In this document: positions 12,778 to 63,746 of the stretch, piece after piece
How positions within the stretch are numbered: position 1 is the stretch's first letter
Layout of the letters: each line of letters begins with the position of its first letter
Source: Haliclystus octoradiatus
Taxonomy: Eukaryota; Cnidaria; Staurozoa; Stauromedusae; Haliclystidae
Assembly (NCBI GenBank): GCA_916610825.1
Contig: OU744452.1
Location: 19,373,830-19,437,829, forward strand
Length of the DNA stretch: 64,000 nucleotides
Reading direction: 5' to 3'
The notes under the pieces: model-generated
What the model was told of the DNA's origin: nothing
Databases searched by the model: none
Seen by the model: only the letters and a program-made list of their open reading frames with translations
Program-made: the position numbers and the translations under genes

Positions 12778-13083
12778 ATGAAGCTCAGGACATTATTTAT
12801 GTCATTTGCTATTTTGCAAATCATCAAATTGGTTTATGGTGATACTAAGTACATACAAGTGATGGAAGAGCCACTACTACAAGGTCAGGAAATAAAATCG
12901 GCTAACGTAAAGAATCTTCTAGAGTGTACAATTCTCTGTGCCAATGAAACAAATTGCTTCGGCCTTTCAATAGACCTCGCTGAATTGGATCGGTTTCTAT
13001 GCCTTCTCTTCGATCTATGTACAATCAAGACAAAGAAATATGATGCAACCGCAACAAGTACTGGCTACCCTCGTTTTTATCAA
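12778..13083 (+). CDS. Gene D exon 1: signal peptide + PAN/apple-like domain
   Basis: 102 codons from the ATG at 12778 to the donor CAA|GTGAGT (phase 0). A hydrophobic signal peptide is followed by a five-Cys module with C..C....C spacing typical of PAN/apple domains. Identity to exon 1 of genes A-C is low, but it shares the same position, similar length, the same intron phase and the following 25-nt exon. Confidence 0.8.
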
Positions 13084-16000
13084 GTGAGTTATTTTCATTT
13101 TTTTAAATATTGACTTCATATAGGATGAAGATATATATCCAAACAAGTTGAGAATATAATTTGGCATGGTAATTGATTATGTGCCAATTGATAAGAGAGA
13201 AATAATTTCGTCTGTGGTCATTCAGTTCTTTTTTCTCATCTAATTGGATCGTCGTCATACTACATGCGTCATTTTTATAGATTTTAGACCATGTTCATAA
13301 CTTAGTTAATTATATTTTCTTAATCATTTAAGATTTATATTATTCTCAATCGTCTGCAATACAAATCATTTTAAATTCATAGTTTTCTTTACAATCTTCA
13401 CCTACAAAATATTTTACAAGTTCAAGAATGGACTCAACCTAGATAGTTATAGATTGAAGTTTGCATGAAAGCGAAAAGGTTGCATGAAATAATCGATCAT
13501 AGCAAACAATATTTATTAAAATACAACTTACCATTTTCCAAATGAGATCCAAATAAAAACTATACGAGCGGCATAATCTCCGAATAACATTTAAATACAT
13601 AATAGCGAGTTCTCTGAGTTAATACACCAATCAATAATAAGTTAACAACAATATTTTATCGAAGGAGAATGTAAGCACGATAAGAATAAAATATAAATTA
13701 TTTTTTATTCGAAATAATTCTGACAAAAATGATCATTTCATATCGCGATCAAATGCAAGGTAAAGTAGATTCATTTTCTATATAAGTAAATCCTTTCCAT
13801 CAGACATCATAACATGAGCATTTAAATACTACCATCGGCTGTGGTATTTTATATCTTTGAAGCTGCACTAAACATTTCCACTCTATAAAGCATCGCGTCC
13901 GTTTCAATAAATTCTCAATAAATATGCATATCACGAATCTGGCAAAATGAGTTGTTTTCGTTTTTCTATCAAAATAACTATTTTATTCATAATCGTCTTT
14001 TCTTTCATTCGACATCTGTAATGTATTATAAATAGCGCGTAGAAATATTGACAAAAAGATGTAACATAATATCAATATCGAATTAGTATAGCAATTTATT
14101 ATAGAATTTTATTTCCTTTTAAAGAATGTTGATGCTATTATTCTGGAAAATTTGATAACAAGAAGCACTATCAGGCCAATTTTTCAGATCTTTTTTTTAC
14201 TTATAAAATTTTATTTTCAACGAACTCTTAGTATTTTGATAGACTTCCATGAAAATCACAGGCATACTTGCTGAGATTGCAAAGATCAAAAATATATAGG
14301 CTCATATACTACCATATCATAATATTTTCAGATTATATATATAATTTGAAATTTAATACACGCGCTGTATAGAGCGTGGGTCAGCCTTGTTCAATAATAC
14401 CTTGTTCAATACGTACGAAGCAGTAGGTTTGTTGATTAGTACAGTCAAAGCGCCTAAAACGGTAAGTAAAGTGGTTGCTCATTGGTTAATGCTCTGATAT
14501 CGCAATATCAGGGTCGTCAGTTCAAATCTGCCATCGGTAATTTTTATCAACGATTTTTCTTATTTTTTTAAATATGAAGCAGAAAATCATTGTTAATTAA
14601 CAAAAGATTTCTATTGATCATGTTAATAACAGAAATCAGTGGACCATGTGTCTTGTTGAAGCTAAATAAATTTAATATTGAATATATTGCATGCAATGCC
14701 ACGAGTTTGACCGGCCACACTTTGACGGCGTTATTTTGTGAACACCACATTAGTGTTGTATATATTGCAATAAAGATTTATGAATCCGAACCGAACGCCA
14801 TCCAATCGTATCGGGTCAGATTCGGGTGAATATTTTAAGTCTTCGGATCGGATCGGATTTGAAGTGATTTTTTACGGATAGTTTCAGATTTCAAAATTTG
14901 ACTTGGTATTTGTAATTTAGATTAATTAATGTGTTCTGGCTTCCTTTCAGCACATAAAATAAAGTTTTTCTATGTAGATATAGCTACGTTAATTATACAT
15001 TTCAATCGACTCAATTGATGTGAAATAAATTAAATTTTTATTAAAGGAATGATTAAGATGTATTGATTAATGCTACATCGTTTCAATGCGTATTGTGTCT
15101 CATGTTCTCCTCCAGAGTTCATACTCTGTATTATGCAGCGATAGTCAGCTTAGTCAATTGTTTAATTATAAGTGATCTGAAAGTTTTATCATAGAAGGTC
15201 CATTATGGACCACACTCATTGCTAGTATATGCCATATTGTCGCACAGTAATTCCGAATCACAATACGTAACTGCGAAAATGAGCCTTGAGCTATTTTATC
15301 GAATACTTCCGTAACATAGAACAACTTTTGGATGCGTATACATATACACGGTTATGCAGACAACTTATTCGCACTTTAAATCAGTTTTGACAAGTTGTGC
15401 GCAGATTGGCAAATGGAGGTATCTACTTCCCAAATGCCAAGTATTCTCCTTTGGTAACAATAAAATTAACACAATTGAATACATCTTATCTGGAAATCCT
15501 TTCAATCAAATATCTGAAATATCATCTTTCTATTATGCTAGGATAGCAAAAAAGTCACATAGATAGCTTATTTAGCAGAGAAAGTATTTATTTCCAAAGA
15601 CCCTGACATTTTGCTGAAAGCTTATACAATTTATGTCTGTTCTATCATGGAATCAGCCACTCCGATAACGACACACGTATGTTGTTTTTAAATAAGAAAG
15701 CCATTTTTACGAAGCTCAGCATTATAAGCTTTAAAAATTTTCAAAGCTTCAAATCTTCTAGAGCCATTACTTCGTCAATCAATTGAAGCTGTCAAATAAT
15801 ATTCTGTAAATAGAGTATACTTCTTTGCGGATCAATTTATCTGGAAGCCGTGAAGAGTAAATCTGTCACTTTCTTTAAAAATCCATTGGATAAATCCAAA
15901 TTACGGAGATATTTTGAATATTCGTATTAATTAATGCCATTGAAGCTACATACATACATACATACATACATACATACATGCATACATACATACATACATA

Positions 16001-22000: not shown

Positions 22001-25000
22001 AATACATAATTAATAGGAGTCTTTTGTCATTTCAAGTGTAAGGAATGTCTGCTGGCGAATACAATGCAACAGATCTTGACCGGGAAAATTTATTTGATGC
22101 TTGTATCGGCAGCAGAAGATACATTTTAATAATTTTAATAGCCTAAAACCATCCACAAAATCTGGCCTTTCTAGTGATATTTCATTCATCATTTTCCGTG
22201 CATTAACGATTGCGTGATGATGCGTGATTGAACACACAGACAGATTTAAGGGAAATTTAAAAGTAGATGTTTGTTTGTTGTAAAAATGATAATAAAGTAC
22301 GTATTCTTAATCGATCATAATTATGGAATTTGATTGGATGGTTCATGTTTCTGAAAAATCTAGAATAGATAACGTTCAATGAGTAACTATAAGATTGAGC
22401 TACCATCTTTATATAGCTTTAATATCATCATCATCATCATCATCATCAAACTTTCTTTAGGATCCAAAAAGCACATAAAATACTGCTTATTTACATGGAG
22501 CTCTCTGTATATAATCCAAGAACATTATGTAACTAAAAATTGAATTGAAATTGAATTATATTGATTAATATATATTCGACCGGCCTTCAACAATTTGAAA
22601 CATGCTTTTTTCAGAAATCTGTGTTATCTCAAAATAAGTTCAAGATTTGATATTCAAATACATGTCAAATACAAGTGCCTTCCGTTGAAATTTGCGCGCT
22701 TCCGTACATCAAAAGTATAAAAGTTACCCCTCCCCAAGATTTGATATTCAAATACAGGTCAAATACAAGTGCCTTCCGTTGAAATTTGCGCGTTTCCGTA
22801 CATCAAAAGTATAAAAGTTACACCCCCCTCCCCAATTTCAAATCTGCAGAAAGATTTTCATGCTTGTTAGTAACAGTTGCTTATTGTTCTATTGAGTTTT
22901 CAATCACGGAGGCATATATTCGTATTGAAAAATTATCAATAAAAATATATTAACCATCAATAAAAAATAAATAAAAATCACCAATTCTATATTTGCTTCA
23001 ATTGTTTATGAGACTTTTGAAATGAAGCCACAATCTCTATATTAATCTCTATATTAATAGTAGTGTTTATTTGTAAATAAATTATTCCTACATTTGTGCT
23101 CTGTCCACGACTATATAAATTTCATTTCCTCAAGTTTGAAAGAGTAACAAAATTGAATTGCTTTCCATTCTCAGGAATTGATTGGTAATTGTAACAAAGG
23201 TAAGCAATACCAAAGAGTAATACATCAATTAGCTGTTATTATGCGGTTTTCAATTAACAAATATATACCTATTGAAGTTATCGAAAGAAGTTCATAGAGA
23301 AGGCATTATTTCACCCATACGAAATTAAATATTACATTTGTAAATTATTGTTGAGGAAATTTTGAATGGAATATCACTTTGAAACAAAAAATCAGTTTAT
23401 TGTTTTGACTTAAAACAGCGAACGTTTTGTTTAGTGTTTCTAACTGCCATGCAATTTACAAGTTGAATGATATAATAGAGCCATGTAATAGATATATACG
23501 AAAATTAACAATTAATTGATGTTCAAGCCACCTACACGAACGAATAGGCGACCATATAGATATTCAGCAATTGGTAAGCATTTAAAAACTATAATAATTT
23601 GAAAGTAGATGATGTAACAACCAACTTTTCAAACCTCAAGGAGATGCAGAGACAAAAGAGATTGTCTATAGTTTATGAAATTTGGCAAATTTGGGTTGTA
23701 CATTAGAGTAATTAAACCCATTTAAAATACAAACTCAGATTGGATTGAGTCTTTCGTTTTTTAAAATATGATCAAATGAAAGACTAATTGCGAATTTTTC
23801 CTATATGCTAGATAGTTTTTTACATCGTTTAACTTGAAAATGGTATAGTTCGAAACATAGAAAAATTGCTGTTCTAAAGAAAGCTATAAATATTAAAATG
23901 TTGCTTTGCAATTGACTTTTTGTTTGAAGATATTACACAGGAGATTTATATTTTGGGTATAACATCATTTCTCTGAAGTGCACACTAGGGAATCTTAATG
24001 TTGAGAATAAGGATATTATTCATGCTGGCAGAGTTCCTTTTAGAGTCAATAAATATAGCATATGTACATTTGTTCTGAAATATGACGTCATATTGGAATG
24101 TAATTCTGTAATCTAATTGGTTGGTTCGTGTGTTTGGAAATACGAGGTAAATATTTATTGGAAAATTACCATCGAAATTTGTTGATAAAACTTTGTCAGA
24201 TTCTCAAAGCTGAAGAAGAATAAAAAATTTCAATGTATGTTAATAAAGAATTGATATCAACAAAGCAATCTCTATTTAAGAAAGAATATTCTCAAAGGAC
24301 GTAGCGGGATTCCTAACAATTTGATTGGTTGTAGAGCGTGCACGCTTCTGCTGGTGTATTAGAAGGAAGTTTGAACCATTGTTTAACTAAGACACGATAA
24401 AAACAAACAAAATGTCGTCGAAGCAACCTAACTTTAGCTTTGAGTTTTGAATTAGAAACGACACATAATAAGAGACATATTATGTCAAGGTTACAAAGAC
24501 AGAAAAAGAACTTGACGAGCTCCTTCTGAGCTCAAGCGCCAGGTCGATTAATTACCAAAATGTTCATTTGCCCTTGCAAATAGTGGCTGGTCCTTCGTCT
24601 GTAAAATCGTTACTTAGTAAACTGCAAGATCGGCTCCACAACTGTAAACTATTTAAATTAATAATCCTCAGACTTGTAAATGTTGAAATTTTGAATATTT
24701 ACTGATGATTACAATAACGGCAAATTGTGGGGTAGCCCTTTACTATTGACGTTCTGATGTTTTTATTCAACTGGTGGTTGTTCTCTATCCAATGTAATGC
24801 TTTCAATTAGGATTATGAAATCGTTTTATTAATATTATTATTATTAGAATTTTTTAAAGTTCTTAAATAGTTAAATAATTTAGCTAAACATACTAATCTG
24901 ACTTTTTTCATTATATTAGAAATCAATTTAATGCATAAACCATGCAACCAAGTCACGACAAATGGTATTTTTGTGTGTTCAAAAGCGATCGATGGAAATA

Positions 25001-27127
25001 GAGGTGGAGATGTTATCGAAGATGGAGCAAGTGCAACGCACTGGGAAAGGGACACGAATCCGTGGTGGTACATTGACATGGGCGTAAAGCACACGATTGT
25101 TGAAGTAATGGTCTACAACAGAGATGATGTTCACGCTCCTATGTTGGATAAAATCACCATTCAATTACAAGATCAACCAATGCCAGTGCAAACGAATACA
25201 TCTGTGTAAGAGATATACAATAGTTAGATTCTGATAATGTCAATGAGTTTATTAGACTGAAAGAATTACAGTCGCTTTATCAAAGCGAAGAAATGATCGA
25301 CAGTAATGCAATTGATTCTGAGCAGTGATATAAATGTATCATTATTTTATTTAATGAAATGCTTTTCTAATTTCTTATTATTTAAGTTACACAAGTTATA
25401 TGATTTGCGTATCAAAGTCTACATGTGTGAATAGAGTATTTTCATGTCTGCTATGTAGTGTTTGCTTAATAATACATCCCGGGGTCACTAAAGGGTTACC
25501 ACATACTTGCCATGTTTGTATTAGCTCCGAGCGAGTGATTTTTGCTTCCCGAGTGTCTCCAAACTTTTTCGAGTTTAGTAAATATGACTACAAACATTTG
25601 CAAGCATGTGGTAACCCTTTTCTAAATTAAAACAAATGTCGGAATCTCATTCGACGGCGAATTTTCAATTCATGAATTCAATTTTAATTCATAAACCAAG
25701 CAAGGAGAATCCCACAACAAGATAGATATTGTCGAATAAGGAAAGACATATACAATAACGTCAGTAATATAAGTGGTACAATAGTTCTTTAGCAAATTAA
25801 TGCAGTAATTGTTATTTAAATTTTAGATTTACCTTGAAACAGCGTAGCCTATACTTGTCTTTCATTCTGTGTTTTTATTTTGCATGTTACACGACCAGTA
25901 ACTCATTTGCAGTACCACGCTTTTCAATAGATATAAATATATTGAGCTAAATATCGTTTTGTAAATCATAGCCATTATTGAGATATTTATTGGATTGTTA
26001 TCAAAAAGTCATAAATTCTGTATTTTATCACAGATCATACTTTTTGAAACTTGCGATTATTCCCGGTTTTTCGGAGCAATGTTTTACCCTAGGATTTCAT
26101 GCACGCTCTTTCGACCAATCAGATCACAGAAAACCATCGTGATATGTTAGAATGTCTTTTCATAATACACCACCCGGGTTATCAATCGCTTCATTAGATA
26201 ATTCTCGAGGGACTGTGGAGGATTAACCCAGATGGCAGAGCAACCGAACTTCAGATCGGATCATATCTGATCGACTGTGGTTCAAATCCCCCAATGGTCA
26301 ACTCAGCCATGACTGTATCTGAAACATCAAATGAGTACCATCTGAGGATGGCGGATGGAATGGTCCAGAGGGAATTGCATTGTGAGTAGCTGCGGCGCAT
26401 CGTTGCTCATTGACAATCAAGACTTAACTGCCATGAAATCTGTTGAAATTGATCTGCAGTGTCGCGGCTGAGATCAACAATGAGCGTTTAAAATCATTGC
26501 TCTCAGCGAAAAAAGCCACTAATCTAGAAATAGAGGAGCGGTACGGGTGCCTTCGGTAGGGCGACACCGTCTACATTACGTTTTTTTTGGAGGGACTCAT
26601 TTGAGTCATTAGGTACCAGTTAAAAAGCTCTTTTTAAGACTTCCTAATGAGTCCATCGAGAATTATTGAATAAAGGGATTGAGAACCCTGGTGGTATATT
26701 TTCGAAAGACTGTGGCCCGAGATGTAATATTATGCCACACCAACATGGCCGACGAGAGAAAGCTCTGGCTTCGTATTTGAATTGCTAGCCCAATTCAGGA
26801 ATCAATAAGACGTATGTAAAATCTTCTAGTGTTGAAGCTTGTTTCTATAATGACCAACTCTTTATAACGCTAAAGCATTCTTGTCATTACACAGACGTAT
26901 CCCCGGCGTGATATGTGATAGAAAACATTTTCTGCATAGTTATTTGATATGTCTTCTGTTGAATCATTTTTATTCACAGATGTGTTAGTGGGGTACCTTA
27001 TGCAGTGGAAAGAATTCGTACATTCCGATGCGTTAGTCCTGTGAAAGGTCGTTATCTTGTTATCTGGATTGATGGACACACTATACTATCATTGAACGAA
27101 GTCAGAGCCTTTGGAGTTAAATTGTAG
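12778..27127 (+). CDS. Gene D: secreted PAN-like + FTP lectin protein (spliced)
   Basis: The spliced model joins 12778-13083, 23175-23199, 24920-25205 and 26980-27127: 765 nt, 254 aa, in frame throughout with intron phases 0, 1 and 2. Residues 1-21 form a signal peptide (MKLRTLFMSFAILQIIKLVYG). Residues 22-102 form a Cys-rich PAN/apple-like module (LECTILCANETNCFGLS). After the micro-exon comes an FTP (fucolectin, tachylectin-4, pentraxin-1) domain: CSKAIDGNRGG, NPWWYIDMG, VEVMVYNRDD, then C..C and GRYLVIW in the last exon. FTP domains typically bind fucose in a calcium-dependent fold. Here the usual RxDCCxER is replaced by RDDVHAPM, so binding may be lost. The first intron is about 10 kb and full of retrotransposon material. 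Family assignment is strong; function and expression are inferred. Confidence 0.82.
13471..15226 (+). repeat. Dispersed repeat, copy 1 (direct repeat with 19261-20352)
   Basis: Alignable with 19261-20352 over most of its length: AATCGATCATAGCAAACA, TCGCGATCAAATGCA, and TCTGGCTTCCTTTCAGCACA followed by a shared block. Copy 1 has about 600 extra bases at roughly 14245-14865, including a tRNA-like segment. A third fragment of the 3' block lies inverted at about 36655-36735. Non-coding, lies in intron 1 of gene D, probably an old transposon. Confidence 0.75.
14462..14540 (+). repeat. tRNA-like segment (possible SINE head)
   Basis: GCTCATTGGTTAATGC resembles a tRNA D-arm/A box, CTGATATCGCAATATCAG can form an anticodon-like stem, and CAGTTCAAATC resembles a B box. 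The acceptor stem pairs poorly and a T-rich stretch follows. It is more likely a tRNA-derived SINE piece than a functional tRNA gene. Confidence 0.35.
15244..15730 (+). pseudogene. Decayed non-LTR reverse transcriptase fragment
   Basis: Translated pieces match the C-terminal part of LINE reverse transcriptases: KCQVFSFGNNKINTIEYILS (compare the KCxVL..G...Y.L.G block), then LLKAYTIYVCSIMESATPI (the Y..YV.P.LEY thumb region). Stops and frameshifts interrupt it. A close relative lies at 27322-27600. The fragment leads into the CATA array at 15948, which could be its 3' tail. Confidence 0.6.
15948..16053. repeat. (CATA)n microsatellite
   Basis: About 105 bp of CATA/TACA repeats with a few interruptions (CATG, AAATA). 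It directly abuts the 5' end of the truncated LINE that follows. Confidence 0.95.
16216..16959 (+). pseudogene. LINE ORF2, N-terminal part of RT (broken)
   Basis: About 247 codons open, covering the endonuclease-RT linker and early RT motifs: HPNYAPWMTIELRNALKKRN, an EVWDLIKRL-type helix, NRKAPGDDGLNGFVIKAA (compare the KAPGxDGI motif) and TFPTIFKNTIVNPIPK. The nominal start is not an ATG, because the frame is entered from the truncated endonuclease. It ends at a TAA at 16957. The next frame carries the rest of the RT, which shows a stop plus frameshift inside one protein. Confidence 0.85.
17019..18263 (+). pseudogene. LINE ORF2, RT catalytic part and C-terminus
   Basis: 414 codons containing classical RT blocks: YQHGFRIGRSTITALLNF, LLMDLSKAFDSLQHEILLHK (first catalytic Asp), [20 protein letters not shown] and QFADDTEI (the FADD active site), followed by thumb and C-terminal sequence. 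The polymerase would copy its own RNA at a nicked target. It belongs to the same element as 16216-16959 and is separated only by the disrupted joint. The RT core itself looks intact, so the element decayed recently. Confidence 0.88.
18410..18650. repeat. (CTAT)n/(CATA)n array, LINE 3' tail
   Basis: Begins as CTATCTATCTATC and then about 225 bp of nearly perfect CATA repeats. It directly follows the LINE 3' end and directly precedes a second LINE fragment. Open frames across it (YIHT or VCMY repeats) are artefacts of the repeat. Confidence 0.95.
18661..19010 (+). mobile_element. Second truncated LINE fragment
   Basis: Matches about 16264-16600 of the upstream element (GACGTACAATTGG, TTTACAAACAATATTAAAAG, GAATGTGGAAGTAACATGAA) with frameshifts and stops. 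The 5' end abuts the CATA array. Similarity stops near 19010, so it lacks the RT core and a 3' tail. Confidence 0.85.
19261..20352 (+). repeat. Dispersed repeat, copy 2 (direct repeat with 13471-15226)
   Basis: Second copy of the repeat at 13471, in the same orientation, shorter by the roughly 600 bp absent near 19920-19960. The two copies flank the LINE and microsatellite cluster. Confidence 0.75.
20430..21346 (-). mobile_element. Truncated copy of hAT-like element (inverted relative to 31093-32251)
   Basis: Nearly collinear with the reverse complement of 31093-32150, for example GATCTTTCTCAAGATAAACA and ACTCCAAGGAGATTATATCA. It ends at 21346 with ..GAACCGCCCCTG, which corresponds to the CAGGGGTGGATCC end of the other copy. 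The opposite terminus is missing. Non-coding. Confidence 0.8.
21347..22421. other. Intron 1 of gene D, nothing recognised
   Basis: AT-rich sequence without exon or repeat evidence that I could support. Confidence 0.4.
22641..22828. repeat. 94-bp tandem duplication
   Basis: 22641-22734 and 22735-22828 are nearly identical (CAAGATTTGATATTCAAATA ... ATAAAAGTTAC) and differ at a few bases. A short (ATC)n run lies nearby at about 22424-22447. Confidence 0.9.
23175..23199 (+). CDS. Gene D exon 2: 25-nt micro-exon
   Basis: CCATTCTCAG|GAATTG...AACAAAG|GTAAGC encodes ELIGNCNK plus one base. Its length (25 nt), phase change (0 to 1) and single Cys match the micro-exons of genes A, B and C. It joins exon 1 and the FTP exon exactly in frame, giving E-I-N-L at the junction (gene B has E-I-S-L). 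Found by that reasoning, not by similarity search. Confidence 0.75.
24920..25205 (+). CDS. Gene D exon 3: FTP lectin domain, first part
   Basis: Acceptor ATATTAG at 24913-24919, phase 1 in; donor CTGT|GTAAGA, phase 2 out. Encodes the jelly-roll core of an FTP domain: AIDGNRGG, HWERDTNPWWYIDMG, VMVYNRDD and KITIQLQDQPMP. A His about 26 residues before the Arg of NRDD is kept. The CC pair and second Arg of the canonical RxDCCxER motif are not. Confidence 0.88.
25491..25621. mobile_element. Short inverted-repeat element (MITE-like)
   Basis: AAAGGGTTACCACATACTTG at the left is matched by CAAGCATGTGGTAACCCTTT at the right, with about 85 bp between. Non-coding, in intron 3 of gene D. No clear target duplication seen. 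Confidence 0.6.
26222..26580 (+). mobile_element. tRNA-derived SINE-like sequence
   Basis: The head has an A-box-like GATGGCAGAGCAACC (26231-26245) and a B-box-like GGTTCAAATCC (26279-26289) at a tRNA-like spacing, followed by about 280 bp of non-coding body. This suggests a polymerase III SINE. The 3' boundary is approximate and no tail or target duplication was resolved. Confidence 0.45.
26980..27127 (+). CDS. Gene D exon 4: FTP lectin domain, C-terminal part
   Basis: Acceptor TATTCACAG at 26971-26979, phase 2 in. Encodes CVSGVPYAVERIRTFRC, VKGRYLVIWIDG and LSLNEVRAFGVKL and then TAG. The C..C spacing, GRYLVI and EVRAFG are the typical end of an FTP domain. It aligns closely with the last exon of gene B. 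Confidence 0.9.
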
Positions 27128-27600: not shown

Positions 27601-27610
27601 GATATCTTTA

Positions 27611-30472: not shown

Positions 30473-30654
30473 TCAGCAACATTGCCATTTTGCTGCACCA
30501 CTTCCAGCACATCCAGCTCCTCCATACTGTGGAGCTGGATTTGTACAGTATCTTTGCCTTTGAATACAATAAGCACAACTGCCACAGGGATTTCCATAGC
30601 CACCTGCCGAATTACATGGTCGAGTATCTATCCAACCTGTCCACCTTCCATTTA
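30473..30654 (-). CDS. Gene A exon 4: terminal TSP1 variant
   Basis: Acceptor TTACTTTTCAG, phase 1 in; reads NGRWTGWIDTRPC, a CGSCAYC insertion, RYCTNPAPQYGGAGC and KWQCC and then TGA. It is homologous to the last exon of gene C (61424-61623) and its duplicate (56452-56651). Confidence 0.87.
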
Positions 30655-33600: not shown

Positions 33601-36116
33601 TATCTGATATTCATCAAAATAGCAATTTAGATTCACCTAAATAAGTAAATAGAGTGGTATCAATCACCCCACCGAAGGCACCCGTAGATTTGCCTGACAG
33701 CATATACAACATGTTTTTTTCAATATATGGATAACTCACTTACTTGGACATGGCGGTAATGTGCATAAGATAGTCTTGGTTGGACTTCCAGCGCATTCGT
33801 TCCCTCCATTCTGTGGTGTAGGTTGATCACATTGTCTTTGATGAGAAGTAGCCCCACTTGCGCATGTCACACTGCACGACGAAGTTTGTTGCCAAGAACT
33901 CCATTCCCCGTGAACTAATGTCATAAATATCAAAACGGATAAATGTAACAATTGTAAAAATAACATCCATTTATAGCTACACTGAAAATAAATTATACAA
34001 TCAAATTTCTATTATTCCCAGCATGACCTTCAAGCAGAAAATGTAAAATGATGTGCTTGCTGTTTACATGATGGATTTTAAAAATAATATTATGAATAGA
34101 TGGATAATAGGTTTAAATTCGTTTGCGTAATTGTTTCTTTCGAATACAGCTACGGCATTAATGTAGTAGTTGGGAGTCTGATTCCATTGCCAAACGTCAT
34201 GGTAAACACATAGCGACCATGGGCATCCATAAGGTCTGACGCAAAGTTCCAAAACAGAGGCTTGAAAACCGGGAAGTTTCATGCCATGTTTCGAGCAATT
34301 TTTGTTTCTAGATGAAACGGAATTGTTTTTATAAAAAGAGTTATTTATGACTACCCGGCAATTTCAATTTGCATTATTCATGAGCTAAGATATCAAATCT
34401 TTAATCGTATTGGAATGATAATAGCTTTATTAAAATTTTTATATTTCCTTGTCTCTCGGTGTGATTTTAAATTATTCATAAATTTTTGAAAATAATTGTG
34501 ATCCTATGAACAAATCTCACTTCGCTGGAAGGAAAATCCTATTTAAACTATCCTTCTATGACAGCGAGAACATATTGTTTAGATTTTTGATTACAAAAGA
34601 GTTTATAGGAGAGATCAATTGATTTTGAAAATGTCGACGAGGAGAGCGCTAAAATAAGTCTTTTTGCGTCAGCCATCTTCATTCCCCATGTTGCATATCT
34701 TCGTCAGCAGTCTCGTCAGCAGTCTATGTAAGTCTATGGGTAGTACAAACTCTGGGTGAACAGAGGGCGGGGATGACACTTTAGAAAAAAGTGAAACACT
34801 CAAGAAGAAATCTGAAACTTCCTACCCCTAATTTTTTCTCAGCGTGAAAATGAACCCAAAAAGGATGGCAGATGCCCGTATTGCAGTCAATAGGAGTTAA
34901 CCCTCGTATTTGTAGCTTTAATATATACTAAAGTAGCTTTTGGAAATTAATAACATCTTGAGATATGAAGTACTTTGTTGATGCTAACTATAGTTAACCC
35001 CGTACCTAATCATCAAAAGTAGATGTTGCATATTTAATACAGATTGTAACGGCAGGCATCGTTGATGAAGTTTTACTTACCGACTGGTCCGTAATAGCAT
35101 TTTGCCTGAATATAGAAACAGAAAATAAATTTGAAAGTAATCATTTAAATATGCGAATGCATGTATAGCATTGGCACCTTCCATAACTATGTGAATTCCT
35201 ATTTATCTTTCGACTGCTAATCAGTGACAAATAATCAGTCAATATAATAACTATTCGTTGTTGAATATTGAAAATTCAAATCACTGTAGGGTCACTCGGT
35301 TCTTTCATGGATGACATCGCTACCGTTGGAAACGCATTATCTTTCGCAGCCTCGGCTGTATATAGCTACTGTGTCAGCCTCGGTGACGGATAAGTTTTCA
35401 AATTAGTCTATAAACACAACCGGGTTGTATCCCATGGTATTTACCCCCAATTACTTAATGGGTTAATAGTGGACATAAGAACGAGTGAAGCACCTGATAA
35501 AGTTGTAGCAACTTGGGCTTAACGTGGAAACGCTGAAAACTCTGATTCTCAGAGGGTTTGTTAACGAAAACGTTCTTTATTACGTGCATCAATGTCGGTG
35601 AAGTAATTTTGATGACTACTCATTTTCTACCTGCTTGCCGTTTCATGAAGCTATGCAATAGGTCCCATTAGCTCCTATGGCGCTGTGAGGGCAACTGCCT
35701 GTTATTTATAGCCATACAGCCGTTGGGACAAAAATAATGGATTGTATATTCGTATAGTTCACCTTTGCAAATACAAGGTAGTCTGTATTCTCCTTCATGA
35801 TTAATCTTGTCTTCATGTCAGCATCTTCATGTACACTAAGTAATATGCAGTTATTTTTTATCTTCTCTATTATGTAGTAGATAGCAGTACATTCTCCAAC
35901 TGCTTTACAAAAGTGAGAACAATAAACACTATTTAATGCAGATAGTGTTTGTAATACATTTGCAGTAGGATCTGTCTTGTTAGGAAAGTAAAACATCGGA
36001 ACTCTTTGGACTGATTGACAAAATGGAAGTAAAGGAATTGCGAATGATGGATTTTGAATGGATAAATGGAGCAACAGAAAGCACGTTGCTGTACTGGAAC
36101 GATTGATAAATGCCAT
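30473..36116 (-). CDS. Gene A: secreted PAN-like + two TSP1 repeats (spliced)
   Basis: Exons 36116-35763, 35105-35081, 33914-33744 and 30654-30473: 732 nt, 243 aa, intron phases 0, 1, 1. Residues about 1-26 are a signal peptide. The rest of exon 1 is a PAN/apple-like domain (VYCSHFCKAVGECTAIYY, NNCILLS). Two thrombospondin type-1 repeats follow. The first has WSSW and CSVTCASG, the usual C-mannosylation and O-fucosylation contexts. The second has WTGW, a Cys-rich insertion and NPAPQYGGAGC, and ends KWQCC-stop. TSP1 repeats generally bind matrix or cell-surface partners. The protein has no membrane anchor, so it is probably secreted. The third intron carries a 1.16-kb hAT-like insertion. Confidence 0.83.
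31093..32251. mobile_element. Non-autonomous hAT-like element, 1159 bp
   Basis: Left end CAGGGGTGGATCCAGCC, right end GGATCCGCCACTG (reverse complement CAGTGGCGGATCC). It is flanked by 8-bp direct repeats CTCAAGGA (31085-31092) and CTCGAGGA (32252-32259), 7 of 8 matching. CAG-type ends and an 8-bp duplication point to the hAT superfamily. There is no transposase ORF. It lies in intron 3 of gene A. A truncated inverted copy lies at 20430-21346. Confidence 0.85.
32380..32600 (+). repeat. Dispersed repeat, copy 1
   Basis: Shares TTTTTTCCTCAGCTTGAAAA, GGCAGATGCCCGTATTG and GATGCTNNCTATAGTTAACC blocks with 34790-35005. The inner part also resembles the MITE at 39306-39615. Non-coding, in intron 3 of gene A. 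Confidence 0.65.
33744..33914 (-). CDS. Gene A exon 3: TSP1 repeat
   Basis: 171 bp, phase 1 in and 1 out, acceptor ATGACATTAG, donor A|GTAAGT. Encodes HGEWSSWQQTSSCSVTCASG, RQC, PQNGGNEC, a LCTLPPC end and then P. This is a complete, canonical six-Cys TSP1 repeat. Confidence 0.92.
34170..34300 (-). pseudogene. Probable decayed FTP exon in an intron of gene A
   Basis: On the minus strand one frame gives VLELCVRPYG, the next gives HGRYVFTMTFGN, and the first frame resumes with YYINAVAVFE. Together these follow the order of an FTP C-terminal exon (Cys, GRY-V-, EV-VF end) and need two frameshifts. It lies between the micro-exon and the TSP1 exon of gene A. The match is short and was made by eye. 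Confidence 0.4.
34790..35005 (+). repeat. Dispersed repeat, copy 2
   Basis: Second copy of the 32380-32600 repeat in the same orientation, ending ..CTATAGTTAACCCCGTACC. In intron 2 of gene A. Confidence 0.65.
35081..35105 (-). CDS. Gene A exon 2: 25-nt micro-exon
   Basis: ATATTCAG|GCAAAATGC...CCAGTCG|GTAAGT encodes AKCYYGPV plus one base. Same length, phase and Cys position as the micro-exons of B and C (IECKPS). Confidence 0.85.
35763..36116 (-). CDS. Gene A exon 1: signal peptide + PAN-like domain
   Basis: 118 codons, donor GCAAAG|GTGAAC (phase 0). Hydrophobic start (TATCFLLLHLSIQNPSFA) followed by a Cys module with CSHFC..C and NNC. The ATG at 36116 lies only 3 bp after a strong acceptor (TTTCTTTCTATAG), which decides the start. 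Confidence 0.83.
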
Positions 36117-41934: not shown

Positions 41935-42088
41935 TCACATCAAATTAGTTCCAAAGATTCTGACTTCAGCTAAGCTGAGAGTGGCTGATGGTGATTTGAT
42001 GGTGATAACTAAATAGCGTCCATATACAGGTACTCCGCACTCCAAAGAACGGATTAACTCAATAGAATAAGGGACATCTTTCTCGCAG
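41935..42088 (-). CDS. Gene B exon 5: FTP domain, C-terminal part
   Basis: Acceptor TTTTACATAG, phase 2 in. Encodes CEKDVPYSIELIRSLEC, VYGRYLVITI and LSLAEVRIFGTNLM and then TGA. Collinear with exon 4 of gene D. Confidence 0.92.
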
Positions 42089-45000
42089 CTATGTAAAAAA
42101 ATAAAATACATACTGTAGTATGTAATTTGATATTGTTCATTGTAACTTATCTTCCTGTTCTCAGTTGTATATCTGTGAGAAGTGTTTTATTTAGAATGTT
42201 TTTAATGTATGATGTCATGTGGTATTTTTGCTATTGTGCATGTTGTTCACGTGATTTTATTGCTCTGTAATGCATGGGTATTCATTTGATAACTATTTGA
42301 GCTATTGTGATTTGTGCTTTGTATTGTCATGTGACTAGTAATTGTTTTATAGATTTTGTGGTCGTGTTGCTTCACCCTCTTGAGTCAGATCGTCGTAGAA
42401 AATGCATCGTTTATATTTGAAACTATTCACTATTCAATACTAAATACTTACATCTGCTCTTGATCAAGGGTTTCTTGAGGCATTGGAACATCTTGTGCCT
42501 TGATTGTGAACAAGTGAAGACGTTCAGAGCAACAATCAGCACGATTATAAATCATTACTTTTGTGACCTTGTGAGGTTCTTGAAGATCAACTTGCCACCA
42601 TGGGCTCTGCTGTTCTAGGGTGGAAGAAATTCCACGGTTGTCAATATTCTGATCTCTATTTCCATCAATTGCAAATGAGCACGTTAGAATCCAAGTATGG
42701 GGGAAATCACTACTTTGACTGCACTCTTTACCAACCAATGAAATCTCTAATAAAATTCAAATATATTAAGAGTATTATCAGACTTGAGGGGTTATTTTGA
42801 GGTAATTGAACTAAACCAGAGGCATCTATTTAAAAGAGTTGGGACGCTCATGCCATTTTTTATCTTATTGGCCTACACCGGAGAACGTTTTAAACAGTGC
42901 GTGCGGTAAAAATTTGCACTGTGTGATATGATCTGTGATCGTTTAACAAGAGTAGCGTGTATTACAACCATTTAATTGTTATCTTTTTCAATATATATTT
43001 GCTGGACTCAACAAATTAGCCTAAAAAGGTAATTCAATGTATACTATGTTATCGACCTCATGAGGATGTTGATCGACAGTAAATAAATACTGATCAATGT
43101 TATTGGAATTGCTACATGGAAAAGAAGTTCTTGAATTTTTCTATTGCAGCCAAACATTCCATTTTCTATTTCTTGTCCCCAGTTGAATTAGTAAACAATA
43201 CTTTTATTTCGATTAAAAGGGGGCAATTTATTTCGGGGCAATTGGTAACCGTTAGTAGTAATTTTGAATTTTGGACAGTATAAATAAAAAATATCTGCAC
43301 ACCCCAACGTCCCAATTTTTAAACAAAAGCTGCGTATACTATCAGAGTTCTCACTCATATGTTACAGTTCATCGATTGTTTGTAATTGATAGATTACCAC
43401 CCTGATTGGTAAACATAATTAAAAGCCGTCTAGTAATCAATGATTAATGACTAATAATCGTTAAATGTTTTTAATAAATAATTATGATTATGATGATGAT
43501 GGTGATGATAATGATGATAATTTGGCACTAAGAGTCAATCAGAAATCATAAAGTTGGTAAACTCTCATTTTATTAGACAATTAACACCTACCTGGGCATG
43601 GATGTGTATTGCATGGTACATCCCTCTCTGTTTTTTCACTGCATTGTTCTCCATTGCAAGAGGGTGGGACACATTCTCGTTTCTGAATCATCGATCCACT
43701 GTTATATTGTGCTGAACAAGCAGATGCATTCTGCCAAGGTTTGTAAGTTGCATTGACTGAATAAAATATTGCAGGGCTGTTTACAGAAGTAGCTCAATAC
43801 ACCAGCAGGAGCTCTTACAAGATGCAGCGGAAACACATTAATTGAATATATTACTTTGAAAGTGTTTTAATCTAATCTAGGTGGTATTAGAAAAGGTTTC
43901 AAAATTTAATAGCCCGGAGCTAACTATCTTCTTCAGCGTCATAGTGTTTGTAATGACAACGACATTGATTCAATTAATCTGATTGAGTTAAAGCTGTAAC
44001 GCCTGTAACGCTGTCAACTAAGAACAATTCCCGGTTTCAAAAACACAATTGATAATGTAGTTTTGAACATGATATATCACGATTGAGAATTAAAAGGAAA
44101 CTTTGCGACAATCGCTTAATATATAATTGATGAACATCAGTCTGGCAACATAACAATAGAACAAAAACACAGAATAGTTTACCTAATTTTGATGGCTTGC
44201 ATTCGATCTATGAAGATAATGGAAGTAATATTTAATACAAACTTCGAAGCACTCATCATTCATTAAAATACTAATTCCAAAATTATTACATATCTATATA
44301 GAGTCCATAGTGAACAATTGGAGATAAGAGTTACATATCTTATAATTTGTTGAGTATAATGTTTTGAAAAATATTAGCTTTGAGTTTGTAACAGTCTCAA
44401 AGCAATTTTTACAAACTGACAAAATAATGAAGTCACTCATTCCTGAATAGCTTACCCACGGTTATATCCCATGAATCTTAAATAAAAATAATAGTTTATA
44501 GTTAATGAATGGAACATCCTGTTTTGCGAAAAATATAGCAATTATTAATGGATTTTTCAACGAACAACTTCATGTAAAAATTCAATAAAATTGATCAATT
44601 GAAAATTAAGCTAAAGTTATTTATAGCCTGAAGATGCAGATTTCATGAGACAAAAACTTATGGGAAATCATGCAATGTCAGTATAACATTGATATAATAA
44701 TTAGGCCAATAGTTCTAAACTTAATCCTCATCTCTCTTATAAACATACAAAGAATTCAATTCATGACAACTAGTGAGAAATGATTAACCATTGGATGAAG
44801 AATTTCTACTATAATACAATACCATCCGCGTAAAAATATTGCAAAACACAAATTCCATTTTGGCATCCGTAAAGTCTACCATTATTTTTGTATTATTCAT
44901 GTCATTTATCTTTTGTGGAAAATGCATCAGCTGAACTGTTTGTTATATTTGAACTGATTAATAATAGTTTTCATGCTAATTATCATTTAAACAGCACTGA

Positions 45001-45604
45001 GATTTTACTAACGAGTGGCACTAAATCGATGTCTAAATGATGTTGAATAAAGTTAACTGTTTTGATCACCAACGTGTTTTACAAACTTGGATGATTATAA
45101 ATTCTAGCAACTTTTAATGATAAACTTAAGCTAGACTGATACATTTGATAAACTACAGATTATCAAGCTCAGTGATCAACAAGAAAACTTAACGTTTCAA
45201 GTAACAAGATTGCAAATTAGTTCTATTGGTAATAGTGTACATTATCTCACCGGTAAGTTAACAATAACTTGAGATTTGTGTTTCTGTTTTATGTAGGTAT
45301 TGATGTTTGTCAAATTGAAAAGTCTACAGTTGCTGAACATGCCTGTCCCAGAATAAAAGTCGATCGCAACACAACCGTTTATTTGCTTGCATATTGCTTT
45401 GCAAATAAAAATTGTTGCAACATTTTTATCATCCATTGCTTTAGAACTGTTTATAAAAGATCTTTCGAATAGTCTTCCTTTATAATTTGTCGGATTCACT
45501 TGAGATAATTCACAGAAGTTGCCAATAACGATAAGCAGTATTATCATCGAAACCCAGATCGTTATTTCATAACGTAATGCCATCTTATGCATGTTTCTGT
45601 TCAT
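41935..45604 (-). CDS. Gene B: secreted PAN-like + TSP1 + FTP lectin protein (spliced)
   Basis: Exons 45604-45251, 44207-44183, 43756-43592, 42746-42452 and 42088-41935: 993 nt, 330 aa, phases 0, 1, 1, 2. A signal peptide (WVSMIILLIVIGNF) is followed by a PAN/apple-like domain (FICKAICKQINGCVAIDF, NCRLFNL), micro-exon peptide IECKPSKL, one TSP1 repeat, then an FTP domain with AIDGNRDQN, SPWWQVDL, YNRADCCSERL and GRYLVI. The RADCCSER string matches the FTP fucose-site consensus RxDCCxER, but the upstream His of that site appears replaced. The protein may be a secreted lectin, with TSP1 providing a second adhesive surface. An alternative start at 45583 (MALRYE) aligns better with the MA starts of A and C. 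Confidence 0.87.
42452..42746 (-). CDS. Gene B exon 4: FTP domain, first part
   Basis: Acceptor TTTTATTAG, phase 1 in; donor GCAGAT|GTAAGT, phase 2 out. Encodes ISLVGKECSQSSDF, FAIDGNRDQN, SPWWQVDLQEPHKV, YNRADCCSERLHLFTI. Confidence 0.92.
43592..43756 (-). CDS. Gene B exon 3: TSP1 repeat
   Basis: 165 bp, phase 1 in and out, acceptor TTTTATTCAG, donor G|GTAGGT. Reads NATYKPWQNASACSAQ, KRECVPPSCNGEQC, then CNTHPCP. Same length as gene C exon 3. The first Trp of the usual WxxW is Tyr, and the CSxxC region is shortened (CSAQYNSG). Confidence 0.92.
44183..44207 (-). CDS. Gene B exon 2: 25-nt micro-exon
   Basis: TTCATAG|ATCGAATGC...AAATTAG|GTAAAC encodes IECKPSKL plus one base. Nearly identical to the gene C micro-exon. 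Flanking intron sequence is duplicated as B' (46312-46611 and 53168-53405). Confidence 0.9.
45251..45604 (-). CDS. Gene B exon 1: signal peptide + PAN-like domain
   Basis: 118 codons, donor ACCG|GTGAGA (phase 0). Strongly similar to gene C exon 1 (GCVAIDF, NCRLFNLT, YIK.KH.S.VIVNL). First in-frame ATG is 45604; 45583 is the alternative. Confidence 0.87.
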
Positions 45605-53405: not shown

Positions 53406-53409
53406 AAAA

Positions 53410-53545: not shown

Positions 53546-53981
53546 GTCATGAGAGGTCATTAATTGTATATTTTGAAAATTTATATAACAGAATATGCAA
53601 GACATTAATAGTGTTCAACTGTTGAATTCTCATTTTCTCATTTCAGTTTCTTTATCTCTATAAGTTTACAAATTAAATACCAGTTTTGAATTATAATCGA
53701 TAAAGGAGAAAAACCGCAATCGAAAAAATGGGAATCGTTTCGAAATTTCACTATGAATATTGCCGTTTTTATTATTACTAAAACGTTAAAAAGAATCTGT
53801 ATTCATAATACACCGTAACTTGAACCACATTTTTGAAGTTGCTAGTCTACAGCTTTTGCTTTCTGTATCTAAAATCTATACGTATATACACTTGTTGTTG
53901 AGTATAAGAAATGTCAAACAAAATAATTGTTTCCGTCTTAGTTTACTTTATAATGAATTAATAATATATGGAGCCGGTATG

Positions 53982-54876: not shown

Positions 54877-54884
54877 CCGGTATG

Positions 54885-56451: not shown

Positions 56452-56651
56452 CTAGCCTTTTGCCTCAACAGCATGTCCATTCTGGGCCACTATAGCACCA
56501 TTGCAATATTCTCCCCCGTATTGTGGAATTGGGTTGTCACAAGTTCTTTTTCGCCTTTTGCACCCTATGCAGAAGACGTGACATTTAAATGGGTACATTG
56601 CTGCTAATTTGCATTGCTTTATATCCATCCAATTTCCCCACATCCCATCAA
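56452..56651 (-). pseudogene. Duplicate of gene C terminal TSP1 exon
   Basis: Same sequence as 61424-61623, with acceptor TCTATTTCAG intact. No upstream gene C exons accompany this copy, so it can be used only by splicing from gene C over an extra 5 kb. Otherwise it is a dead exon. Confidence 0.8.
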
Positions 56652-59848: not shown

Positions 59849-61423
59849 CCGGTATGTGGTTTCTATCAGAATACAATGAATAATCAGTTTAAAAATTTAT
59901 ATATATATTTACATATGCGTTCAAGAAAAGTATAAAATCAGAAACGTTTGCTCACGAAACAAGCATAATATTTCATTGAAGCCAATTATAAATTACATTA
60001 GGGTCAACTATACGCTGGTATGCTATATGCCACACTCCACTACTTTTTTTCATCGTATTAAAATGTTTCTTTACTTATCGAGAACCATGTATACCGATAC
60101 CAAAAGAAAATATATCGAAAAGTTAGATGAGTTGCAAATGCTATTATGTGATTGGTGAAATGAAATGACAAGTTAAATGAAGTTTATTAAGATGATATTT
60201 AACTGTGACGATTCAACTGTAATCAATAGTTCCCTTTGCAAATATGTTTATTGTAGCCCGGCTTTGATGAGATCAAGAATCGAGGTTGGGAGTTTATGAA
60301 ATGGGCCTGTCCAGCTGTTTGAGGTTACAAATTTGAGTGAGATAAATCCGTTATCGTTGCCTATTTTGTTAAATTCGTGCATTTATATGGTTGCCGAGCA
60401 ATCCAACCCACAGGTAGGAACTCACCTAATGTGCAGTTGGATCCAATCTGGTTAAGAATGAAGTTCTCCATATAAACATGTGGGCAAGTTTTGTGGGCAA
60501 GCCTTGGTAGTAGCTATATGTGTGCAAGTGCATAAAATAGATAGCATTGAAGGGTGCTTACGCTATCGTTTAGAAGAATTTCGATATTTTCTATCTTTTC
60601 TTTTGCTTTGGTCGTATTCAACAAAGACACAAAATTAGATGGCCTAATTAAAGATGTTACTCCAGTGACATATGTTACTTATATTTGTATCATAATGGTA
60701 CATTTTTCTTTTCTTATAATAATTTGATGACAACTCTGAATTAAATCAAATCGAATCGTTTGCATTAAAGAAAATATCATAATTATCAGACACTTTTATA
60801 TCTTATGTTATAAATCATAATAAAAATAGAAAGATCTCAAATATCATGGACAGATTCATTTCCATGGCATTGAGCACTATATTATTTGCAAATATATATA
60901 TACTCGGCGACCTCGTTCAAGTTATCGATTTCTACATTTGTTGTTTGTAAGCGAGAAGGTCATTTTATTAATCATGAACGTAGCCTTTTGTCAGGAATAC
61001 CATTAATTCTCACCAATATCATCACAACAATGTTTTGTTTTCAGATTTAGTTTGTCAAAGATTTTACATAATTTCCGGAAAGACCACAAATATACAAATG
61101 TCGAAATAATTTAGTTACCAACAGACAATACTATTATTATAGAGATATTCCAAGAAAAGCTGTAACATTTCTGTTTAACACTTTCTGGCTTGTTTGTATT
61201 GTTTCTGTACTTAAATAAAGTAAATAAATAAAATCAAAATAAATACAAGTTAAAATCAAAATCTGTCAACCCTTTTACAGAACAGAAATTGCAATCGATC
61301 CCTTTATATATTCATATTAAAGTTTTGAAAACGTATAATCATAGATTTAATTGATATAAAGGATGTGTCGTTACTTTGTAAGATATTTTATATTTGATAA
61401 TACATGACAACATGTCCTAACAG

Positions 61424-61623
61424 CTAGCCTTTTGCCTCAACAGCATGTCCATTCTGGGCCACTATAGCACCATTGCAATATTCTCCCCCGTATTGTGGAA
61501 TTGGGTTGTCACAAGTTCTTTTTCGCCTTTTGCACCCTATGCAGAAGACGTGACATTTAAATGGGTACATTGCTGCTAATTTGCATTGCTTTATATCCAT
61601 CCAATTTCCCCACATCCCATCAA
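61424..61623 (-). CDS. Gene C exon 4: terminal TSP1 variant with altered end
   Basis: Phase 1 in. DGMWGNWMDIKQC, CHVFCIGC, TCDNPIPQYGGEYC, then GHAVEAKG and TAG. Relative to gene A exon 4 the reading frame shifts after YCN: the other frame would give a WTCC-stop end like KWQCC-stop. The change is shared with 56452-56651. Confidence 0.8.
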
Positions 61624-63746
61624 CTGAAATAGAAAACAGAAATAGAGCCAAAGCTGAACGTATCCGATTTTCTAATGCGTTCGGCAAATGATTCATTGAA
61701 ACTATGTTTACTACAAGCATTTAATATAAAGAAACTATGGAATAAAATGAATTTTGAGGTTACATAAAAGCCTCTATGAGAAATTTATATGCTTGAAAGG
61801 ACAAATCTGCGAAACTTAATGTTGCTCGATTCAGCATGATTACAAACCTAGATTCATCGATTTTGCATTTAATTGATGCTATATTTGCGATTCAATTGAA
61901 TCCTTGATTGTAATCAATAATATAATGCAGCATACATTCTAAGAATATATTATATATACCTGGGCAAGGTTGTGTATTGCATGATACAATTTTTTCGGTT
62001 TCTTCAACGCATATTTCACCATTACAAGATGGTGGATGACACTGTCTACTCTGATTCTTCTGTCCTCCGTCACATGACGCTGTACAGGAAGAAGAATTTT
62101 GCCAATCTGTATATGTAGCATCGACTTCAATAATAAAAAGACAAATTAATTGGTTTGAGAACATAAAATTCATGCATGTATATAAATATATCATTTGAAA
62201 TAATAAAAGTCAGAGAATCAGACAGTCATGTTTGCTACTTGAAGTTTCACGCCGAGGCGATCATTGAATAGATTGCCTGATGATCGCCTCGGCGTGAAAC
62301 TTCAAGTAGCAAACATGACTGTCTGATTCTCTGACTTTTATTATGTAAAGGTCTGCTATATTTTGCATTGAGCCCTATGTTCAATCAGTAAGACAACTTT
62401 TTACAAATATCATTTGAAATATGAATCTTACCTAGTGTAGATGGCTTGCATTCGATCTAAGTACAGAAAATAGAAAAACAACTAATATAGGATCGATCCC
62501 AATATTTAATAATTCGGTGATAGAATTCGGGTAAAATTCATAGCTATTTCAAAGCTCTAATTACAGCTCTGAATGCAGTATAAATGGTCATTTCCTTCAT
62601 ACATTTCTCCAGTTTCAAGCCAGTTATTACTTCTTTTGAGTGAAATTTGTGAATTTTAATCTCAATTGTCAACATGAAATGTACTCCATCGAAATTCAGA
62701 CTATTGGGAGTGAACAAAATATATTTTATAGATATCGTTACAGTCAGGAAAAATATCTGGTGAATTTTGAAATGTTTTACTATATAAATTGAAATATTAC
62801 CAAATATATATGTATAGACGGTCAAACTATAGGAATGTGCTATCCCTCTTTTGTACATACCATATTTCAAGAGTGATACGGGTCGCCACAGTATCCTCCT
62901 CAACGAAGCAAACTATAGATTTTAGAAAATGTTCGATTCTAGAACGATGTCTTGGTAAGAATTATTAACCCCATTGTGTGGAAATTTACTCCTTGTCGTT
63001 GAAAGCCTCACTCAGCTCTTGAGTAAGATTATGATACTGCCGAAATGAATTTGTGTAGCATAACATAACAAGTCGAGGTACATTTCTTCTGATTAATCAA
63101 TTTAATTCATCCTAAATTATCAATTGTTACGATTAGTGGTTTGTTTTCTTTGCAAGAGAATAAACCTCTCAAACACCTGGCATTGAGCACCATGACTAAT
63201 ACTGAAAGTTCTGTCGTGCTAAATAGTATACCATTTATTCTGTAATACTGCAAGTTCTGTGATTCATATACAGTTATACAGTTATGCAGCACAGTTTATC
63301 CTTCAAGAGTCTCTGCTCAGGATATAGATTTTCAGTCGTGTAAATTGCTATATCATTTGCAAACCCTCATATAATTTATTATTTTTGACACTGTATCAAC
63401 TCACCTTTAAATTGACAATTACGTGTGATTGATGTTTCGGCTTGATGTAGTGTTTGATGGTTGTCAAATTGAACAATCTGCAATTGTTAGAAACACCAGT
63501 TTCATTTTTGAAATCGATTGCAACACATCCGTCTGTATTTCTGCATATTGCATTACAAATATAACTTGCTTCCACGTAGATTTCCTTCATTGTCACAGCG
63601 CTGTCTATGAAAGAGTTGATAAAATATCTTCCTTTGTAGTTTATCGAATTTGCAGGAAACACTTCACAACAATTTCCAATAGTAATGTGAAATCCGATAC
63701 AAGCAGCCAAAGTCAACATTGAATCTATGATTCTTTTCCGTGCCAT
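61424..63746 (-). CDS. Gene C: secreted PAN-like + two TSP1 repeats (spliced)
   Basis: Exons 63746-63405, 62456-62432, 62124-61960 and 61623-61424: 732 nt, 243 aa, phases 0, 1, 1. Start MARKRIIDS (an upstream in-frame TTG is not a start). Signal peptide (LTLAACIGFHITIG), PAN/apple-like domain (YICNAICRNTDGCVAIDF, NCRLFNL), micro-exon peptide IECKPSTL, TSP1 (YTDWQNSSSCTASCDGG, CVEETEKIVSC), and a second TSP1 variant that is frameshifted at its end. Sister of gene B by sequence, but its module order follows gene A. Probably secreted; no membrane anchor. Confidence 0.84.
61960..62124 (-). CDS. Gene C exon 3: TSP1 repeat
   Basis: 165 bp, phase 1 in and out, acceptor ATTGAAG, donor G|GTATAT. DATYTDWQNSSSCTASC, CHPPSCNGEIC, SCNTQPCP. 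Closest to gene B exon 3. Confidence 0.92.
62200..62344. repeat. Perfect hairpin, 64-bp arms, 17-bp loop
   Basis: 62200-62263 and 62281-62344 are exact reverse complements (64 of 64); the loop is TTGAATAGATTGCCTGA. It lies in intron 2 of gene C. ATATCATTTGAAAT occurs on both sides (about 62188 and 62406). GC content is higher than in the neighbourhood. Confidence 0.97.
62432..62456 (-). CDS. Gene C exon 2: 25-nt micro-exon
   Basis: TACTTAG|ATCGAATGC...ACACTAG|GTAAGA encodes IECKPSTL plus one base. Same phase and length as in A, B and D. Confidence 0.9.
63405..63746 (-). CDS. Gene C exon 1: signal peptide + PAN-like domain
   Basis: 114 codons, donor AAAG|GTGAGT, phase 0. Very similar to gene B exon 1 through the Cys module. 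Confidence 0.87.

Follow-up and report, generated by a model that had tools for sequence, protein, structure and literature searches.

An apparently Apple-closing micro-exon and copied leaders in a four-gene cluster of Haliclystus octoradiatus

The window analysed here comprises 64,000 nucleotides (nt) of chromosome 7 of Haliclystus octoradiatus, a 21.35 Mb contig in assembly jrHalOcto1.1 (PMC9975415), and carries a cluster of four predicted genes, D, A, B and C. In all four models, exon 1, encoding a signal-peptide-like stretch (called by eye) and a PAN-like domain, ends in phase 0 and is followed by a 25-nt micro-exon with a single cysteine codon, after which the next exon starts in phase 1. 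The mitochondrial COX1 of this genome, in which TGA is read as tryptophan, fits a cnidarian. The present analysis concerns this micro-exon and the leader preceding it, that is, exon 1 with its 5′ flank. The features are as follows, in window positions.

12109..13460, plus strand: gene D leader block, from the 5′ flank through exon 1 and 377 bp into intron 1, DNA shared with loci L002–L006
12778..13083, plus strand: gene D exon 1, signal-peptide-like plus PAN-like domain without N-terminal cysteine, phase 0 out (PAN_1 13.7 bits, below cut-off)
23175..23199, plus strand: gene D 25-nt micro-exon, ELIGNCNK + 1 nt (splice scan; paralogous exon in L041)
24920..25205, plus strand: gene D FTP domain, first exon, phase 1 to 2 (Pfam match)
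26980..27127, plus strand: gene D FTP domain, last exon with stop codon (spliced model)
35763..36116, minus strand: gene A exon 1, signal-peptide-like plus five PAN/Apple-type cysteines, phase 0 out (cysteine alignment)
35081..35105, minus strand: gene A 25-nt micro-exon, AKCYYGPV + 1 nt (splice scan, paralogues)
33744..33914, minus strand: gene A TSP1 exon, 1-1 (TSP_1 32.6 bits, above cut-off)
30473..30654, minus strand: gene A terminal TSP1-like exon with stop (spliced model; without a Pfam match of its own)
45251..45604, minus strand: gene B exon 1, signal-peptide-like plus five-cysteine PAN domain, phase 0 out (profile, fold)
44183..44207, minus strand: gene B 25-nt micro-exon, IECKPSKL + 1 nt (splice scan, paralogues)
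43592..43756, minus strand: gene B TSP1 exon, 1-1 (TSP_1 10.6 bits, below cut-off)
42452..42746, minus strand: gene B FTP domain, first exon (Pfam and PDB sequence match)
41935..42088, minus strand: gene B FTP domain, last exon with stop (spliced model)
63405..63746, minus strand: gene C exon 1, signal-peptide-like plus five-cysteine PAN domain, extra cysteine directly before the first, phase 0 out (alignment)
62432..62456, minus strand: gene C 25-nt micro-exon, IECKPSTL + 1 nt (splice scan, paralogues)
61960..62124, minus strand: gene C TSP1 exon, 1-1 (TSP_1 21.4 bits, just under the cut-off of 21.6)
61424..61623, minus strand: gene C terminal TSP1-like exon with stop (spliced model; second copy at 56651-56452 in a tandem duplication)

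All named junctions carry GT/AG borders, and the spliced models read without an in-frame stop into predicted proteins of 254 (D), 243 (A), 330 (B) and 243 (C) residues, bearing out the original prediction that the four models stay in frame and that the micro-exon converts phase 0 to phase 1. Exon 1 had also been described as common to the four genes, which is true of its architecture; sequence kinship is clear only between B and C (48–57%), and A and D share little sequence likeness. The FTP profile (PF22633) matched D at 47.6 bits and B at 53.0 bits (cut-off 27.8), TSP_1 exceeded its cut-off only in A, and a degenerate TSP1-like sequence makes up the last exon of A and of C. In B and D, two exons encode FTP, one running from phase 1 to phase 2 and the other from phase 2 to the stop. 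True 1-1 modules are therefore found only in the first TSP1 exons of A, B and C, and the description of the modules as phase-1 units stands for these exons and not for FTP.

The A-, B- and C-type first exons have five invariant cysteines in PAN/Apple order, and the micro-exon adds a sixth. PAN_1 matched 27/27 B-type members at E up to 1 (best 1.5e-7), with gene B exon 1 at 18.3 bits against the Pfam cut-off of 21.4, and it lay below the cut-off for C and D in full-length scans; in the structure model, for which exon 1 alone was folded, the B-type exon has the PAN/Apple fold. PAN domains can contain from four to six cysteines (PMC9249922), and the Apple domains of kallikrein have six (PMC10499198). 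Once the micro-exon is added, the A, B and C types have six cysteines, which may pair as in the Apple form (C1–C6, C2–C5, C3–C4). Among the 16 D-type first exons aligned, three cysteines are invariant and one nearly so, none of them N-terminal.

The 25-nt exon of the A, B and C types is real and coding. When each intron 1 was searched with splice scores for open 25-nt exons, one dominant candidate was found in A (its single candidate), B (clearly the best) and D; the D exon, which the original prediction had placed at 23175 within a 10-kb intron, scored 9.0, the next candidate scoring 0.0. In gene C, an unrelated 25-mer without cysteine scored 6.1 vs 5.6 for the chosen micro-exon. Dinucleotide-shuffled introns reached the observed score in 0/200 cases for D, 0/200 for A, 5/200 for B and 2/200 for C. 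Relatives were sought in the whole genome (261,861,806 bases, 33 contigs), all paralogue comparisons being made within this one genome. A 25-nt exon encoding AKCYYGPV or a variant was found in seven of eight A-type genes (A, L050–L052 and L067–L070; 12 matched in all), and 13 B-type micro-exons were identified (B, C, L031, L033, L034, L048, L066 and six by motif search); one of these loci, L066, repeats the gene B order of exon 1, micro-exon, TSP1 and FTP. Codon 3 is cysteine in 20/20 of the A/B/C-type micro-exons identified, three of them in the window. Codons with a single difference in frame 0 showed synonymous to non-synonymous ratios of 51:17 in the A type and 130:72 in the B type, and non-synonymous differences heavily prevailed in the other two frames; these comparisons are pairwise and not independent, although the contrast between frames is large.

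Genome-wide motif searches gave the same length. With a free gap, 25 nt was obtained in eight of nine matches, the ninth lying without an exon 1 nearby, and the reversed motif had zero matches in the genome. A looser motif gave 44 rows and its reversed control 14; all 12 rows (11 sites) downstream of an exon 1 are readable as 25 nt, two of them being printed as 21 and one as 29 from an alternative GT, vs 1/32 rows elsewhere. The micro-exon was not found within 5 kb in L047 nor within 5 kb in L046, for which the motif search puts it 16.6 kb away, and the 1.5-kb flanks of 30 loci from the B search (B and C included) held five micro-exons; others may sit further off.

The D-type genes differ in this respect. 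Candidate linker exons are of 22 nt in L043, L044, L055/56 and L058 (those of L055/56 and L058 being alike), 25 nt in D and L041, 28 nt in L045, 31 nt in L063, 34 nt in L059, 37 nt in L057, L064 and L065, and 40 nt in L061, and those of at least 28 nt are without cysteine; the candidates named for L044, L059 and L065 were chosen by likeness to a relative and not by score. The introns of L060 and L062 gave no clear linker candidate. The invariance of the 25-nt length claimed for the family thus applies to the A, B and C types and apparently not to the D type. In a scan of lengths from 16 to 48 nt, the best candidate was 1 mod 3 in 10/14 D-type introns (P = 0.004) and in 14/18 overall (P = 0.0001), the chance expectation being 1/3. 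From these sequences, the micro-exon looks fixed where an N-terminal cysteine awaits closing and free where that cysteine is absent. Locus L041 (contig C8, ~19.344–19.350 Mb, minus strand) has a micro-exon and an FTP exon like those of gene D; no exon 1 was recognised within 10 kb upstream, and L041 may be an orphan body, a pseudogene or a gene with a very divergent leader.

Searches with exon 1 gave 150 (B), 12 (A) and 69 (D) matches, corresponding to 229 distinct places on nine contigs; the B search scored 150 of 248 candidates, so more places may exist, and its weak tail may include other PAN families. The window's own contig holds 54/229 of these places and 14/15 of those found with D exon-1 DNA. 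The ratio of non-synonymous to synonymous divergence (dN/dS) of exon 1 was 0.15–0.67 in 24/26 pairs (one gene pair entering the 26 twice), a range expected of functional genes, and that of FTP-N was 0.18–0.75 in the seven of ten pairs for which dS could be computed. Positive selection on exon 1 as a general feature was rejected, one pair having a ratio of 2.1 on nine changes and one pair having no synonymous change. Alignment A1 was made without L023, L027 and L035, which have stops in frame, and alignment A2 without L005 and L059.

Module choice largely follows leader type. An FTP exon, from a search that scored 150 of 184 candidates, lies within 25 kb downstream on the same strand in 54/69 D-type, 4/148 B-type and 0/12 A-type places (P = 1e-33), and one of the four B-type cases is gene C, which merely reaches the FTP of gene B. 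As controls for the D-type places, the opposite strand gave 4 and the upstream side 24, the latter reflecting clustering. TSP1 follows the micro-exon in 8/11 A/B-type loci (L034, L048, L050 and L066–L070), with a stop in frame in the TSP1 exon of L068, and was not seen in the examined stretches of L031, L051/L071 and L052. Genome-wide linkage of TSP1 to exon 1 was left unused: scoring was confined to the best 150 of 1433 candidates, and these did not include the window's own TSP1 exons. Two arrays were observed elsewhere. Contig C2 (3.54–3.63 Mb) has seven tandem FTP exons at 11–23 kb spacing, six of which have equal scores and, judged by score, are probably near-identical; contig C7 (8.90–8.98 Mb) has a dense TSP1 array apparently present twice, 65–66 kb apart, with pairwise equal or similar scores.

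The leader and the body of gene D match different relatives. Leader homology with all five loci L002–L006 starts at 12109; it extends to 13460 at 94–96% with L003 and L004 (with a short gap near 13.2 kb) and to 13241 at 96% with L002 and L005, and identity with L006 is 92% to 13149 and 80% beyond. The micro-exon and FTP of gene D, on the other hand, match L041 (FTP exon DNA 86–87%, protein 72%). Between D and L003, the leader of the L043 gene, dS is 0.07 in exon 1 and 2.3 in FTP-N. Likewise, L003 and L004, the leader of L055/56, are identical at 303/309 sites in exon 1, with introns alike for 3.4 kb with one interruption, and their FTP-N is 50% identical. D, L043 and L055/56 thus have one leader (exon 1 ~94–98% identical) on three bodies (FTP-N 42–50% identical), and the breaks between leader and body fall in intron 1. 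Homology is longer between some donors (L002/L005, 98% over 3.3 kb; L003/L004, 95% over 2.8 kb; L003/L006, from the first base), other pairs sharing ~1.4–1.6 kb, and no target-site duplications were seen by eye at the ends of the D leader block. The visible shuffling is leader exchange via intron 1, which may have come about by duplication, conversion or transposition. The locus had been regarded as an exon-shuffling cassette; shuffling does occur in the family, and it is the leader that is swapped, not the modules behind the micro-exon.

Considering these results, we propose the following scenario, in which we have reasonable confidence; a recount of the cysteines lowered that confidence slightly. 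In the A, B and C types, a phase-0 intron would split the PAN/Apple domain just short of its end, so that exon 1 encodes the putative signal peptide and five of the six Apple cysteines. The 25-nt exon would supply the last eight residues with the sixth cysteine, probably pairing with the first as in the Apple domains of plasma kallikrein, and would bring the domain to its end in phase 1, the phase in which the TSP1 or FTP exons follow. Because the micro-exon would close the Apple domain, its length may be held by protein structure, phase conversion being a consequence. In the D type, which is without the N-terminal cysteine, a closing bond would not be needed, and the linker exon seems free to vary. 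Separately, leader blocks (5′ flank and exon 1) have been copied ahead of different FTP bodies through breaks in intron 1, making gene D a chimera. In a more tentative extension, which we regard as doubtful, intron 1 has long served as an exchange point at which promoter-bearing leaders are recopied before diverging FTP bodies, the linker length being freed exactly where the PAN cysteine was lost. If this is true, an early-branching animal has a genome-wide system placing many recognition domains under shared control.

Several observations weigh against the proposed closing role of the micro-exon. An extra cysteine lies at most six residues before the first invariant one in 12/27 B-type exons, C included, and directly before it in six, which, if kept in the mature protein, would make the cysteine count even without the micro-exon. 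When A and B were scanned full-length with Pfam, PAN was absent from the matches at E up to 1, and in the A-type L051 the micro-exon was not found in 7.6 kb. A fifth cysteine occurs at varying places in 10/16 D-type exons, D included, so this form is not cleanly four-cysteine, and the linker cysteine does not track it. The D-type linkers beyond D and L041 were called from splice scores and pairwise resemblance, the best candidate was not 1 mod 3 in 4/18 introns (L058, L059, L065 and L044), and the length scan of gene C was won by an unrelated 25-mer. Between D and L041, the micro-exon shows zero synonymous and five non-synonymous single-difference codons, a pattern without purifying selection, and differs at 8/25 sites, vs 6/72 in the flanking intron (P = 0.007); fast evolution of the D micro-exon or decay of the gene is possible.

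Other explanations of the micro-exon were weighed against this scenario. It is very improbable that the micro-exons are chance candidates and that exon 1 is spliced otherwise: the models are predicted from genomic sequence, the D exon was chosen by rule in a large intron and C has a slightly better-scoring rival, but shuffled controls rarely reached the observed scores, and the A and B types combine paralogue conservation and a synonymous pattern with genome-wide co-location of micro-exon and exon 1. The original prediction regarded the micro-exon chiefly as a phase adapter whose 25-nt length is maintained to let any phase-1 module attach, in keeping with the 0-to-1 conversion in all four genes and with class 1-1 modules being the usual currency of shuffling (PMC8001218). 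However, any length of 1 mod 3 would serve a pure adapter, which needs neither exactly 25 nt nor a fixed cysteine codon, linker length seems to vary among D-type genes although their phases are the same, and free attachment conflicts with the strong pairing of leader type and module (FTP downstream of 54/69 D-type vs 4/160 A/B-type places); we consider this explanation unlikely.

For the leaders, it is possible that the copies reflect ordinary segmental duplication and gene conversion within clusters and not shuffling into new contexts, given the concentration of exon-1 places on the window's contig, the longer homology of some donor pairs and the chance that the D leader is a conversion tract. 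Nevertheless, D shares ~1.35 kb with its donors and its FTP with a different relative, L041, and nearly identical first exons precede FTP-N halves of 50% identity in L043 and L055/56. Because conversion replacing a leader yields the same chimera, this alternative differs from leader copying in process, not in outcome. As to function, lectin-like domains in large, clustered families are a typical mark of recognition, and the size, clustering and divergence of this family make a recognition role plausible, the proteins being presumably expressed, predicted to be secreted and perhaps able to bind glycans or proteins outside the cell. The FTP domains complicate this view, as the complete fucose motif HX24RXDX4(R/K) is kept in 0/6 domains examined; the cation motif (two small hydrophobics, DG, then N, D or S) is present in three of the six (B, D and L045), or in five if the lysine of L041 and L043 at the last place is allowed, L044 being without a match (motifs from PMC5712786). 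The FTP domains may bind sugar differently or no longer. Structural, adhesive or venom secretions are a quite plausible alternative, though we give them somewhat less than an even chance; besides the incomplete fucose motifs, the mesoglea of Hydra contains thrombospondin, a TSP protein of another kind (PMC6079037).

PAN, TSP1 and FTP domains and the exon shuffling of class 1-1 modules are already known (PMC8001218), and no account of an Apple-closing micro-exon or of such leader exchange was found in searches of open PMC papers. The PAN/Apple domains of plasma kallikrein, factor XI and HGF and the N-domain of plasminogen have the same fold and cysteine order as modelled for B-type exon 1; unlike in these proteins, the end of the Haliclystus domain, with the sixth cysteine, lies alone on a 25-nt exon, and PAN is joined to TSP1 or FTP, not to kringles or a protease. 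Pfam and PDB sequence searches place the FTP domains of B and D with F-type lectins (eel fucolectin 1k12 and FBP32 3cqo), but these two domains do not have the complete fucose motif. The phase-1 TSP1 exons and the predicted secreted multidomain proteins resemble the class 1-1 shuffled modules of Patthy (PMC8001218), whereas the Haliclystus leader ends in phase 0 inside a domain. The exchanges seen break in the phase-0 intron 1, so it is the leader that is exchanged as a unit. Schistosome micro-exon genes likewise have tiny exons of predicted secreted proteins, but their micro-exons are symmetric and many per gene, and each Haliclystus model has one asymmetric micro-exon. The family, from an animal class with few studied genomes, offers a natural comparison between genes of the same phases with and without the N-terminal Apple cysteine, in which micro-exon length is fixed or apparently variable, and lets one ask whether reading frame, splicing or protein structure holds that length. 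The shuffling is also recent enough for its breakpoints to be mapped, leader dS being ~0.1 vs the near-saturated 2.3 of FTP.

The window has further features. The tandem duplication holding the second copy of the gene C last exon consists of abutting units at 51854-56825 and 56826-61797, each of 4972 bp and 99.86% identical, and may be a true recent duplication or represent unresolved haplotypes. Intron 1 of gene D contains, at 16198-18263, open reading frames with a reverse transcriptase domain (RVT_1, 105 bits), which we take to be non-LTR-retrotransposon-like. On the minus strand at 10397-11336 lie two open reading frames, one with a weak DUF3504 match below cut-off, perhaps the remnant of a Crypton-like tyrosine recombinase. 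A 179-bp tandem repeat of 14.8 copies (96%) occupies 627-3280.

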